Shown piece after piece: positions 55,976 through 64,000 of a stretch of DNA of 64,000 bases. Under the pieces are notes generated by a model. It was not told the DNA's origin, searched no databases, and saw nothing but the letters and a program-made list of their open reading frames with translations. The position numbers and the translations under genes were made by a program. The DNA is taken from the NCBI GenBank assembly GCA_012270485.1, contig JAAXIF010000031.1:37269-101268 (forward strand), read 5' to 3'. This DNA is from Sphingobacteriales bacterium (lineage in GTDB: Bacteria; Bacteroidota; Bacteroidia; Chitinophagales; Chitinophagaceae). The first letter of the stretch is position 1, and every line of letters starts with the position of its first letter.

Positions 55976-56962
55976 TTGCTTATGGCTAATGTTTTATGGT
56001 TACAAGGTGGTGCCTGTAGTGGTAACACAATGTCTTTTTTAAATGCTGAGGAACCTACGGTTGTAGAATTGGTTGTGGATTTCGGTGTCAATATTTTATG
56101 GCATCCATCCATAGGTTTGGAGATTGGCCATCAGGTAACTCATCTTTTACATGATATTTTGGCAGGTAAAGTACAAATGGATATTCTTGTTTATGAAGGT
56201 TCTATAATTGAGGGACCGAATGGAACAGGGACTATGAACTATTTCTGCGACAGACCAATGAAAGATTGGGTGAAAGAACTTGCAGCAGTAGCTGGTTATG
56301 TAGTAGCCATTGGAGATTGTGCTACTTGGGGAGGTATCCCAGCAGTACCACCTAATCCTAGTGAAAGTACAGGTATGCAGTTTCTAAAAAAAGAAAAAGG
56401 AGGTTTCCTTGGAGCTGATTATAAATCAAAAGGCGGACTACCTGTTATTAATATTCCTGGTTGTCCTGCGCATCCAGATTGGATTACTCAAATTTTGGTA
56501 GCCATTTCTACAGGTAGAATTGGAGATGTTTTGATTGACGAATTTCATCGTCCTAAAACTTTCTTTACAGATTTTGTACAAACTGGATGTCCTAATGCCA
56601 TCAGCTTTGCCCAAAAAATGGATGGTGGCTTTGGTAAAAGAGGCGGATGTCTCTTTTATGAAGTAGGCTGTCGTGGACCAATGACCAGAGCAAGTTGTAA
56701 CAGAATTTTATGGAACAGAACAAGTAGTAAGACCAGGGCTAATCATCCATGTCTGGGTTGTACAGAGCCAGGCTTCCCACATAACGATCTTGTAAAAGGT
56801 TCTGTGTTTAAAACCATGAAGTATCTAGGCTTCTTGCCAAAAGAAGTACCAACTGGTGTTTCCAAACTTGGCTATTATTCAAGAGCCGGAGTTGAAAAGG
56901 TAATGGGATCTATAGAACGGGTTATGGGAACAGAACAGGAACATTTTGAAACCAGTAAATAA
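55976..56962 (+). CDS. hupS: [NiFe] hydrogenase small subunit, group 2a-like (start may be ATG at 55982)
   Basis: MANVLWLQGGACSGNTMSFLNAEEPT, IPGCPAHPDWI, GCRGPMTRASCNRILWN, HPCLGCTEPGFP; no Tat signal. Confidence 0.93.
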   Translation: MLMANVLWLQGGACSGNTMSFLNAEEPTVVELVVDFGVNILWHPSIGLEIGHQVTHLLHDILAGKVQMDILVYEGSIIEGPNGTGTMNYFCDRPMKDWVKELAAVAGYVVAIGDCATWGGIPAVPPNPSESTGMQFLKKEKGGFLGADYKSKGGLPVINIPGCPAHPDWITQILVAISTGRIGDVLIDEFHRPKTFFTDFVQTGCPNAISFAQKMDGGFGKRGGCLFYEVGCRGPMTRASCNRILWNRTSSKTRANHPCLGCTEPGFPHNDLVKGSVFKTMKYLGFLPKEVPTGVSKLGYYSRAGVEKVMGSIERVMGTEQEHFETSK

Positions 56963-56989
56963 TCTTCAAATAAAATTCAAATAAAGAAT

Positions 56990-58588
56990 ATGTCTACAGT
57001 AAAAGAACTGAATATATCTCCAGTTGGTCGAGTTGAGGGTGATTTGGATGTGAAAGTCTACATGGAAAATGGAGTTGTTACCCGCGCACACACGCAGGCT
57101 GCGATGTTTCGTGGTTTTGAAAGAATCATGCAGGGCAAAGATCCGCAAAGCGGATTAATTGTAACCCCACGTATTTGTGGTATATGTGGTGGATCGCATT
57201 TATATTGTGCATCCTCAGCTTTAGATACGGCATGGAAGACACAACTTCCTCCTAACGCATTACTTTTAAGGGCACTAGGTCAGGCTACTGAAACAATCCA
57301 GAGTATACCCCGTTGGTTTTATGCCATCTTTGCAACAGATATGGCAAATAAAAAATTTGCAAACAAAAAACTCTACGATGAAGTTGTAAAAAGATTTGCT
57401 GCCTATGTAGGTACATCATTTCAATCAGGAGTTACTGCCAGCGGTAGACCGGTTGAGGTGTATGCACTTTTTGGAGGTCAGTGGCCGCATAGTAGCTATA
57501 TGGTCCCTGGAGGTGTAATGTGCGCCCCTACTTTAAAGGATATTACAAGGGCACATTCCATTATGAATCAATTCAGGAATGACTGGCTTGAAACCACTTG
57601 GCTGGGTTGTTCTATTGAAAAATACAGAAGGGTACAGAGTTGGGACGACTTAATGGCGTGGGTAGACGAAAATGAAAGCCAACGTAATAGTGATTTGGGG
57701 CTGTTCATTAGGGCTTCATTAGAATTTGGACTTGATAAGTTTGGTCAGGGTTGTGGAAATTATGTGGCTTATGGTACTTATTTGCACAAGGACAAATATA
57801 ATAATCCAACAATTGAAGGTAGAAATGATGCTTTGATTAGTCCTTCAGGATACTATGACAGTCATTCAAAAAAGTATAGCGACTTCGATCATTTGCAGAT
57901 TAAAGAGCATGTTACGCATAGCTGGTATCAGGATCACAAAGCAGCTCACCCATGGGATGAACCTATACCAACTCCAGTAACTTCAAAAAATCTTGAAGAG
58001 ACTGATTTCAGTGGAAAATATAGCTGGTCAAAGGCTCCTAGATATATGAATAATGCTGCAGAGGCTGGCCCATTGTCAAGATGTTTAATGTATGCAAAAC
58101 CAAATAATCTAGAGCACCAAACCAAGGACTTTCTTATTAAGGATGCCATGGATAAAATGGGACCGAGTGTGTTCTTAAGAACATTGGCGCGTGTGCATGA
58201 AGCTCCAATGTTGTATGATAATATTGATACTTGGTTAAGACAAATCAGGCTCGATGATGAATTTTATATCAAGCCTGAAGAAAGAGATGGTAAGGGCTTT
58301 GGAGCTACTGAAGCGGCTCGTGGCGCATTGGCACATTGGATCGAAATTGAAGATGGGGTGATAAAGAATTATCAGGTAATGGCACCTACCACTTGGAATG
58401 TAGGTCCAAATGATTCCGAAGGAAAGTCAGGCCCTATTGAATCAGCCCTTGAAGGAATTGAAATTGAAGATGCCAACGATCCAGTTGAAGTTGGTATGGT
58501 GGCTCGCTCTTTTGATAGTTGTTTGGTTTGTACGGTGCATGCACATGATGCCAAGACAGGTAAACAATTAGCTAAGTTCAAGCTCTAA
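56990..58588 (+). CDS. hupL: [NiFe] hydrogenase large subunit, group 2a-like
   Basis: L1 PRICGICGGSH; L2 DSCLVCTVH with 15-residue C-terminal tail AHDAKTGKQLAKFKL. Confidence 0.94.
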   Translation: MSTVKELNISPVGRVEGDLDVKVYMENGVVTRAHTQAAMFRGFERIMQGKDPQSGLIVTPRICGICGGSHLYCASSALDTAWKTQLPPNALLLRALGQATETIQSIPRWFYAIFATDMANKKFANKKLYDEVVKRFAAYVGTSFQSGVTASGRPVEVYALFGGQWPHSSYMVPGGVMCAPTLKDITRAHSIMNQFRNDWLETTWLGCSIEKYRRVQSWDDLMAWVDENESQRNSDLGLFIRASLEFGLDKFGQGCGNYVAYGTYLHKDKYNNPTIEGRNDALISPSGYYDSHSKKYSDFDHLQIKEHVTHSWYQDHKAAHPWDEPIPTPVTSKNLEETDFSGKYSWSKAPRYMNNAAEAGPLSRCLMYAKPNNLEHQTKDFLIKDAMDKMGPSVFLRTLARVHEAPMLYDNIDTWLRQIRLDDEFYIKPEERDGKGFGATEAARGALAHWIEIEDGVIKNYQVMAPTTWNVGPNDSEGKSGPIESALEGIEIEDANDPVEVGMVARSFDSCLVCTVHAHDAKTGKQLAKFKL

Positions 58589-62152: not shown

Positions 62153-62158
62153 GTTCAT

Positions 62159-64000
62159 TTGCAAAACATTCATACATATCATATTCACCTGACTGGTATA
62201 GTACAAGGAGTTGGCATGAGACCATTTGTTGTGCAGCTAGCGCTTCATTTTAAATTAAATGGTTGGATCAATAACACAACTGATGGGGTACATATTGAAT
62301 TCAATGGTACTGAATATCAGGCAAATCAATTCCTTGATCGAATTATAAGTGCTCCACCTCCTTTTGCTTTAATTAGAAAGTATACTTTATTTAAAACCGA
62401 TAATAAACTTTTCGATTCTTTTGAAATAATTGAGAGTGATGTTAATTCTATTCCAGATCTTTTATTAACTCCAGATTTTGGATTGTGTTTTGAATGCAGA
62501 ACTGAACTGCATAGTGTTTCAAACAGAAGATTTCATTATCCATTCATAACTTGTACAAATTGTGGTCCGAGATTTTCAATAACCAAAAAACTTCCTTACG
62601 ACCGATTGAATACTTCGATGAAAAATTTTTCAATCTGTGATACGTGTAGTCATGAGTATAGCACTGTTAGTGACCGGAGATTTTACTCTCAAACTAATTC
62701 TTGTCACAAATGCAGTATTTCAATGAAATTGTTTGAAAATGGTAAAGAGACAGAAACATTAAACCCGGAAATGATCTTGGAGATAATTCAACAATTTCTC
62801 AAAGAGGGTAAGATCGTTTCGGTAAAAGGTGTTGGGGGATATGTATTACTTTGTGATGCGACTATTTCCAGTAGTATACAATTATTAAGAAAGCGCAAAC
62901 AGCGACAAGCTAAACCGTTTGCTTTATTGTTCCACTCAGTGGAACAGATGAAAACTTTTGTAGAATGGAGTGAATCTGAAAAGAAATGTCTTCAATCATC
63001 TGTCGCTCCAATTCTACTTCTCAAAAGCAAAAAAAATAGTGAACTTGCAATAGATGATATTGCCCCTGGCCTTTCCCATCTGGGTTGTATGCTTCCAAAT
63101 TCACCACTATTGGAATTGATTGCTGAATCGTTCAATAAACCTTTGATTTGTACCAGTGCTAATATCAGTGAAAGTCCTATACTATTTCGAGATATAGATG
63201 CTTTGACCCATCTACATCACATTGCAGATATTATCTTGAGCCATAACAGAGAGATTGTAGCAGCACAGGATGATAGTGTGATCAAGTTCGCCAGATATTC
63301 AAATCAAAAAATTATTATCCGCCGGGCAAGAGGCTTAGCTCCGAATTTTCTGGGGTATATTCAAAATCAAGATAAATCTATTCTTGCTACAGGAGCGTTG
63401 ATGAAAAGTAGCTTTACCTTTCAAACTCGTCAAAAAACATTTGTAAGTCAGTATCTTGGTAGCACGGGTACAATTGAGGCTCAAGAAATGTATCGGAATT
63501 CGTTGAAAAATCTGACTGATCTGTTGCAATTTAAACCTGAGAAAATTGTGTCAGACAATCATCCTGATTATTTTTCAACTCAGTTAGCGAAGGAAATATC
63601 TACTATTCATGCTATCCCGTTTAATCAGGTTCAACACCATAAGGCACACTTTGCAGCAGTCCTTGCAGAGCATTCACTTCTCGATAGTCATGAATCAATC
63701 CTTGGAGTAATTTGGGATGGAACAGGAATTGGTGATGATGCACAAATATGGGGGAGTGAATTTTTTAAATTTGAGAATAACAGTATGCTGAGGTGTTATC
63801 ATTTTGACTATTTTCCTCAAGTACTTTATGATAAAATGTCAAGAGAGCCCAGGCTTTCTGCTATGGCAATTTGTGATGATGTATTAGGGAGTGATACTTT
63901 GTTGAAAGAGAAATTTACTGATGTTGAATGGTCCTATTATAAAAAGTTACTTGGAACAGGAACGAAAATCAATTGCTGTTCTCTGGGCAGAGTTTTTGAT
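62159..64000 (+). CDS. hypF: Carbamoyltransferase HypF, 3' end beyond window (absent from ORF track)
   Basis: TTG start; frame open for 614 codons; acylphosphatase HLTGIVQGVGMRPFV, zinc fingers CFECRTEL...CTNCGPRFS...CDTCSHEY...CHKC, QVQHHKAHFAAVLAEH. Confidence 0.92.
   Translation, partial: MQNIHTYHIHLTGIVQGVGMRPFVVQLALHFKLNGWINNTTDGVHIEFNGTEYQANQFLDRIISAPPPFALIRKYTLFKTDNKLFDSFEIIESDVNSIPDLLLTPDFGLCFECRTELHSVSNRRFHYPFITCTNCGPRFSITKKLPYDRLNTSMKNFSICDTCSHEYSTVSDRRFYSQTNSCHKCSISMKLFENGKETETLNPEMILEIIQQFLKEGKIVSVKGVGGYVLLCDATISSSIQLLRKRKQRQAKPFALLFHSVEQMKTFVEWSESEKKCLQSSVAPILLLKSKKNSELAIDDIAPGLSHLGCMLPNSPLLELIAESFNKPLICTSANISESPILFRDIDALTHLHHIADIILSHNREIVAAQDDSVIKFARYSNQKIIIRRARGLAPNFLGYIQNQDKSILATGALMKSSFTFQTRQKTFVSQYLGSTGTIEAQEMYRNSLKNLTDLLQFKPEKIVSDNHPDYFSTQLAKEISTIHAIPFNQVQHHKAHFAAVLAEHSLLDSHESILGVIWDGTGIGDDAQIWGSEFFKFENNSMLRCYHFDYFPQVLYDKMSREPRLSAMAICDDVLGSDTLLKEKFTDVEWSYYKKLLGTGTKINCCSLGRVFD

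Follow-up and report, generated by a model that had tools for sequence, protein, structure and literature searches.

What kind of [NiFe] hydrogenase is encoded near the end of the DNA stretch analysed here, can it work as a scavenger of trace H2, and what controls it? The stretch, a window of 64,000 nucleotides (G000:C94:37269-101268), belongs to a freshwater Bacteroidota genome (4.04 Mb, 99.6% complete, 108 contigs) of a Sediminibacterium relative, and the top public match of its large subunit HupL, at 100% identity, is from Sediminibacterium sp. Gen4. A sequence-only reading had proposed a group 2a-like hydrogenase locus from which the host may gain energy. Our analysis makes it probable that the locus is a complete, functional cluster of the Bacteroidota group 2a radiation, encoding a menaquinone-reducing H2 scavenger repressed by TetR proteins. 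The enzyme is a further member of a described radiation, and its cluster is complete and ordinary-looking. The less ordinary parts are a pair of TetR genes with a palindrome found almost exclusively at this locus, and a lack of two helper proteins that the best-studied relative, the Huc hydrogenase of Mycobacterium smegmatis, depends on.

A complete group 2a hydrogenase cluster

For both HupL and the small subunit HupS, the best match among solved structures is M. smegmatis Huc (PDB 7utd, 7uus, 7uur; PMC10017518), a group 2a enzyme and the closest characterised system. HupL matches HucL far above chance, with an expectation value (E) of 8e-202 compared with 2e-62 for the next solved hydrogenase; the corresponding values for HupS are 1e-138 and 2e-34. 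HupS and HupL are close homologues of the Huc subunits, at 65% and 58% identity, respectively, to the Mycobacterium intracellulare proteins. We placed HupL in a maximum-likelihood tree that included named reference enzymes of groups 1c, 1d, 1h, 2a, 2b and 3d, labelled by group according to gene name and host. In this tree HupL falls inside group 2a (support 100/100), with enzymes of Mycobacterium, Sulfobacillus and Mesorhizobium, and within a Bacteroidota-only clade (100/100); groups 2a and 2b are joined at 99/98. Because the outgroup branches are long and the set has no cyanobacterial HupL, the tree is no guide to the finer relations outside 2a.

The predicted motifs and the likeness of HupS to actinobacterial Huc were likewise borne out. 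HupL carries L1 RICGICGGSH and, including the expected Cys pair, L2 DSCLVCTVH, which fit the RxCGxC and D[PS]CxxCxxH ligand patterns; within the tree set, this L2 sequence occurs in all 2a members and only those. HupS, which starts MANVLWLQGGACSG, has at most two codons before MANVLWLQGG, with no twin-arginine translocation (Tat) signal and no N-terminal extension. Its most likely start is ATG 55982; the position first given, 55976, corresponds to a TTG codon in the same frame, two codons earlier, while the other genes lie at or near the positions first reported. Together, these results support assignment of the locus to the group 2a [NiFe] hydrogenase clusters of the Bacteroidota radiation, and the earlier placement in group 2 stands. 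The hydrogenase itself is not new, and its novelty for Bacteroidota is limited, because HucL has already been reported from 13 phyla, with 34 genomes forming a radiation associated with Bacteroidota (PMC7784904); group 2a enzymes have also been found in Bacteroidota marine metagenome-assembled genomes (MAGs) in a 2023 seawater study (PMC10305171).

The hydrogenase and maturation genes are listed below. Those beyond the window end are numbered within L003, the stretch that holds the remainder of the contig.

55982..56962, + strand: hupS/hucS, hydrogenase small subunit, 326 residues (PF01058, PF14720; 65% identical to Mycobacterium HucS)
56990..58588, + strand: hupL/hucL, group 2a [NiFe] large subunit, 532 residues (PF00374; HucL match; tree)
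58708..59193, + strand: hydrogenase maturation protease (TIGR00072 115.8 bits, cut-off 47.5; PF01750)
61089..61433, + strand: hypA (PF01155, 5e-26)
61439..62152, + strand: hypB (TIGR00073 247.7 bits, cut-off 121.2)
62159..64000, + strand: hypF, first 614 codons within the window (TIGR00143 554.6 bits, cut-off 466; ends at L003:812)
L003 817-1086, same strand: hypC, beyond the window
L003 1097-2194, same strand: hypD, beyond the window
L003 2218-3273, same strand: hypE, beyond the window

The protease, hypA, hypB and hypF had been reported to follow hupL. All are present, but two open reading frames (ORFs) between the protease and hypA, encoding p103 and a TPR-like protein, had gone unlisted. 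The hypF gene is cut by the window end and intact in the genome. Because its end and hypC, hypD and hypE are found downstream, the last three directly after hypF, the [NiFe] maturation set is complete: HypABCDEF and the endopeptidase were all detected.

A TetR pair and a palindrome almost exclusive to the locus

The conserved cluster extends upstream of hupS, where a pair of TetR genes, with a small ORF between them, occupies 54257-55905. A scan for relatives found 131, of which we kept 80 loci (1.38 Mb), nearly all titled Bacteroidota and with HupL 77-100% identical; counts of cluster genes among them are limited by short contigs. The elements relevant to control are as follows.

54257..54868, + strand: TetR1, with a TTG start (Pfam TetR_N 2e-9, PF13972 1e-8; in 49/80 related loci)
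54965..55282, + strand: p119, small conserved protein encoded between TetR1 and TetR2, with 54923 as an alternative TTG start (found by clustering, 63 loci)
55285..55905, + strand: TetR2, paralogue of TetR1 (TetR-family profile; in 55/80 loci)
55910..55941, + strand: candidate Bacteroidota-type promoter, TTTG at 55910-55913, 20 bp, then TAGATTTA at 55934-55941 (near TAnnTTTG)
55919..55936, unstranded: putative operator 1, TTAGAAAATTCTTTCTAG, one mismatch to the palindrome
55939..55956, unstranded: putative operator 2, TTAGAAATAATTTTCTAA, exact palindrome, 20 bp after operator 1 (start to start)
60999..61016, unstranded: putative operator 3, upstream of hypA, TTAGAAAATATTTTCTAA, exact palindrome

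TetR1 and TetR2 are 29% identical, and in both the TetR_N DNA-binding domain (PF00440) scores over the cut-off. They have in common the recognition-helix core S-V-G-[NH]-L-A-Y-H-F, so both may recognise one and the same site. The candidate site is an 18-bp palindrome, TTAGAAA-N4-TTTCTAA, present twice ahead of hupS and once ahead of hypA. Only two exact copies occur in the 4.04-Mb genome, both in the cluster (one before hupS and one before hypA), compared with none for a reversed control pattern. With one mismatch allowed, the genome has 9 sites and the control 5, and single-mismatch sites elsewhere are therefore no evidence. The same exact search was run over the genomes of six named relatives. 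Four of them carry exact sites, 11 in all: 10 at the hydrogenase locus and 1 elsewhere (agreement of site and locus was established base for base in Runella, Emticicia and Spirosoma, and by contig in Chitinophaga). Counting the window genome, exact sites occur in five genomes and total 13, of which 12 lie at the hydrogenase locus.

The 80 loci contain 100 exact sites, nearly all preceding cluster genes: the next gene is hupS for 62 (in 50 loci), hypA for 13, hypB for 12, p119 for 4 and TetR for 3. In 45/69 loci the first hupS is preceded by an exact site at a distance of no more than about 300 bp, where about 0 would be expected. For co-occurrence with TetR we counted sites with at most one mismatch in the 3.2 kb preceding hupL, which served as the reference because in loci with a second hupS the operator precedes the downstream copy. 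A palindrome was found in 60/60 loci with adjacent TetR genes and in 2/10 without TetR (Fisher test, 5e-9, shared ancestry ignored). The stronger argument for a dedicated operator is, however, the phylum-wide conservation of an 18-bp motif almost exclusive to the hydrogenase locus.

Could the palindrome belong to another regulator, with the TetR proteins acting elsewhere? Two loci (L040 and L053) carry the palindrome with no TetR gene within the fetched DNA, and a genome of the same family as that of the window (G051) has 28 exact palindromes (control pattern 1) and no HupL; these sites are possibly the larger regulon of a related TetR. Against this stand the co-occurrence just described, the near-exclusive placement of the sites in genomes carrying the cluster, and the presence of some further sites ahead of TetR1, TetR2 or p119. 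We regard a different regulator as improbable.

Repression or activation

Bacteroidota promoters have a consensus with -33 and -7 regions, TAnnTTTG being the -7 box. In 31/61 loci TAnnTTTG starts 32-34 bases after the start of the last operator, and a TAnnTTTG box at +20 to +75 from the operator occurs in 35 loci, compared with 2.8 expected. The downstream operator thus overlies the -33 region in about half of the loci. In the window, the candidate promoter TTTG-N20-TAGATTTA, a sequence reading that is weak on its own, overlaps operators 1 and 2.

The fixed spacing of 32-34 bases before TAnnTTTG in about half of the loci is also what an activator would require, and the TetR pair might act in that way through the palindrome, in a class II-like arrangement overlapping the -33 box. 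But in Chitinophagaceae, including the window, and in L080 and L082 the sites are elsewhere, over the putative -7 box or nearer the start codon. The varying position of the operator over core promoter elements favours repression, and TetR proteins are repressors for the most part. Activation therefore seems unlikely, if the most serious of the alternatives that we weighed, and the TetR pair most likely acts on hupSL as a repressor.

Several observations weigh against TetR repression through this palindrome. Besides the two palindrome-bearing loci that lack a neighbouring TetR gene, contrasts of TetR and palindrome on the HupL tree gave 3 pairs on supported branches (same direction 1.8, opposite 0), and with only three independent contrasts a phylogeny-aware test cannot reach significance. 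Chitinophagaceae operators are closer to the start codon than those of most lineages, and the window has no exact TAnnTTTG after its operators, so that repression is read here from operator position.

Probable quinone reduction without HucM and HucE

The operons of Mycobacterium and Sulfobacillus contain a DUF1641 gene adjacent to those of the hydrogenase, and between their TPR and NHL genes they have the NifU-Rieske gene, hucE; Rieske-type HucE and NHL proteins are common neighbours of hucL in general (PMC7784904). From its place upstream of hucS we infer that the DUF1641 gene (PF07849) is hucM. In contrast to these operons, the window genome and the 80 loci contain neither: HucM, so defined, gave 0 matches in the genome and 0 in the loci, and no HucE was found in either. 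Among the electron-transfer partners that had been proposed as worth looking for, the NHL protein is thus present, whereas HucE and a HucM-like protein are absent from both locus and genome. The NifU and Rieske matches of the genome do not supply a HucE: they comprise a stretch resembling Nfu plus two unrelated Rieske proteins, one of 146 residues and lipoprotein-like, the other of 111 residues, ferredoxin-like and beside an HflX-like GTPase.

Is the cluster then a relic? Activity of Huc in M. smegmatis needs HucE (PMC6883350), and its absence from the genome and all 80 loci, together with that of HucM, counts against a working enzyme. But Huc remained active in M. smegmatis after deletion of hucM, losing its oligomer (PMC10017518). 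Moreover, all ORFs of the cluster are intact, the hyp set is complete, catalytic and quinone-site residues are conserved phylum-wide, and the arrangement recurs in 80 loci with closely similar HupL, which decay would not give. A relic or non-functional cluster is therefore very improbable.

The conservation of the quinone site is informative in itself. In Huc, menaquinone contacts Lys212, Tyr229 and Tyr301 of HucS (PMC10017518). The corresponding residues of Bacteroidota HupS are kept in 70/70, 69/70 and 69/70 sequences, respectively, and all nine HupS cysteines in 70/70. Because these residues are conserved, direct menaquinone reduction is probably retained, and delivery of quinone to the soluble enzyme must, on this evidence, be solved in another way than in Huc. 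Bacteroidota HupS also differs from Huc in a distinct C-terminal tail, which ends in -SK in 78/89 sequences (window 56954-56962).

Accessory genes and distribution

The remaining genes of the cluster are as follows.

59215..59526, + strand: p103, conserved ORF (in 76/80 loci)
59530..61002, + strand: TPR-like accessory protein, 490 residues (in 75/80 loci)
L003 3289-4362, same strand: NHL-repeat protein, beyond the window
L003 4364-4999, same strand: NicO-like transporter (membrane protein, weakly NicO/DsbD-like), beyond the window

A 78-residue ORF and a bifunctional nuclease gene follow the NicO-like gene. HypA recurs in 68 and the NHL protein in 52 of the 80 loci, in many of which the hyp block stands in another place or orientation, and clustering of the leftover ORFs gave one more family, p119. 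By hhalign profile comparison, p119 is homologous to a small ORF that follows the protease gene in a Mycobacterium huc operon (probability 94%, E 9e-8). The mycobacterial protease has a C-terminal extension, to which p103 is related by the same comparison (E 1e-5). The TPR-like protein is homologous to the 424-residue and TPR proteins encoded in the huc operons of Mycobacterium and Sulfobacillus (E values of about 1e-13 to 1e-14). Since p103 and p119 are homologous to parts of the mycobacterial operon, p103, p119, TPR and NHL look like a common Huc accessory set in a different arrangement. A very confident AlphaFold model of p103 shows a compact fold (predicted local distance difference test score 97.3), for which Foldseek found no confident match in the PDB, the weak ones being MraZ-like (TM score 0.50, probability 0.25) and B3-like (TM score about 0.5); the same search gave no fold match for p119.

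It is instructive to compare the locus with known systems. Huc and the window locus have in common the L1/L2 motifs, the nine HupS cysteines and the Lys/Tyr/Tyr of the menaquinone site, and their operons share the protease, a small ORF, a TPR-like protein, NHL and hyp genes. They differ, apart from HucM, HucE and the HupS tail, in that p103 is a gene of its own here and a protease extension in Mycobacterium, and in that the p119 homologue stands between two TetR genes. The clusters of Parageobacillus thermoglucosidasius (PMC12976888) and of a Sulfobacillus acidophilus plasmid contain hucS, hucL, protease, hypothetical, TPR, NHL and hyp genes as here, but, unlike the window locus, carry DUF1641 and NifU-family genes; the TetR gene of Sulfobacillus lies at the edge of the stretch, about 10 kb from hucS rather than adjacent to it. 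From the Bacteroidota radiation, which includes Runella and to whose clade the window locus belongs, no difference in content is established: a Runella slithyformis plasmid copy (HupL 82% identical) has the same TetR-ORF-TetR-hupSL-protease-ORF-TPR-like order.

Just upstream of their main hupS, seven Saprospiraceae/Chitinophagales-type loci (L016, L020, L021, L023, L070, L076, L081) encode an additional full-length paralogue of HupS. These copies are about 70-80% identical to the window HupS and keep all iron-sulfur (FeS) cysteines; most of them also end in Ser-Lys, even though their tails otherwise diverge.

The sampled distribution shows the cluster to be a patchy trait: it was found in 3/200 Chitinophagaceae genomes and in 0/2 other genomes of the same genus. 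Cultured bacteria that carry it include Runella slithyformis, Spirosoma fluviale, Emticicia aquatilis and Chitinophaga costaii. The Runella cluster (L090) is borne on plasmid pRUNSL01 with a tyrosine recombinase nearby, which fits plasmid spread and a patchy distribution. GC content over 54001-64000, the cluster and its upstream part, is 0.32-0.40 and mostly about 0.35, compared with about 0.38-0.42 in most of the window, and is compatible with acquisition. One Bacteroidota-type cluster (L038, PBTY01000034.1; HupL 81% identical) comes from a MAG titled Rickettsiales that is probably mislabelled or contaminated.

Proposed mechanism and implications

How would such an enzyme work? HypA-F and the protease would make and insert the NiFe(CN)2CO cofactor, and cytoplasmic HupSL would split H2 at the NiFe site of HupL. 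Electrons would pass along three FeS clusters in HupS, reach menaquinone at its site next to the distal one and go on to aerobic respiration in a heterotroph, HupSL reaching the membrane quinone with neither a HucM stalk nor HucE. The TetR paralogues would bind the tandem palindromes over the promoter, controlling hupSL and, separately, hypA onward, until some ligand relieves repression. A high affinity for H2 would be expected by analogy with characterised relatives, and energy gain from trace H2, as first proposed, is a reasonable inference from the characterised group 2a enzymes (PMC7784904, PMC10017518).

The classical cyanobacterial role of group 2a enzymes is a different one (PMC7784904): recycling of internal H2 from nitrogenase or another hydrogenase. 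Here no nifH reaches the family cut-off in the genome, which makes nitrogenase recycling unlikely, and HupL is the sole large subunit in a genome profile search with PF00374, [FeFe] hydrogenases not being searched. We consider recycling the least probable of the alternatives, slightly below a relic, and scavenging of trace H2 the preferred role. A PF00016 match in the genome is no sign of autotrophy: it is a RuBisCO-like protein of 340 residues (G000:C58:41042-42064, - strand; L105), which keeps the KPKxGL and DFIKxDE motifs and is too short for a normal large chain. The host is accordingly assumed to be a heterotroph with H2 as a supplement.

We found no report in the open-access literature, supplements aside, of a TetR regulator of a group 2a hydrogenase, nor a description of TetR/operator control or of the absence of HucE and HucM in the Bacteroidota radiation. 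For the huc operon of M. smegmatis, no transcription factor acting directly has yet been identified (PMC13098282), and the window locus names a specific candidate regulator-operator pair for a Huc-type enzyme. The chances are about even that TetR1, TetR2 and the tandem palindrome form a dedicated trace-H2 switch across Bacteroidota and that the enzyme reduces menaquinone through an undescribed membrane docking that uses neither HucM nor HucE; the docking route would perhaps run through the HupS C-terminus or the p103, TPR or NHL proteins. The cluster suggests that a Huc-type enzyme may keep its quinone site and still work in the absence of HucE and HucM, and the proposed roles of these two proteins are open to comparison with the Bacteroidota loci that lack both.

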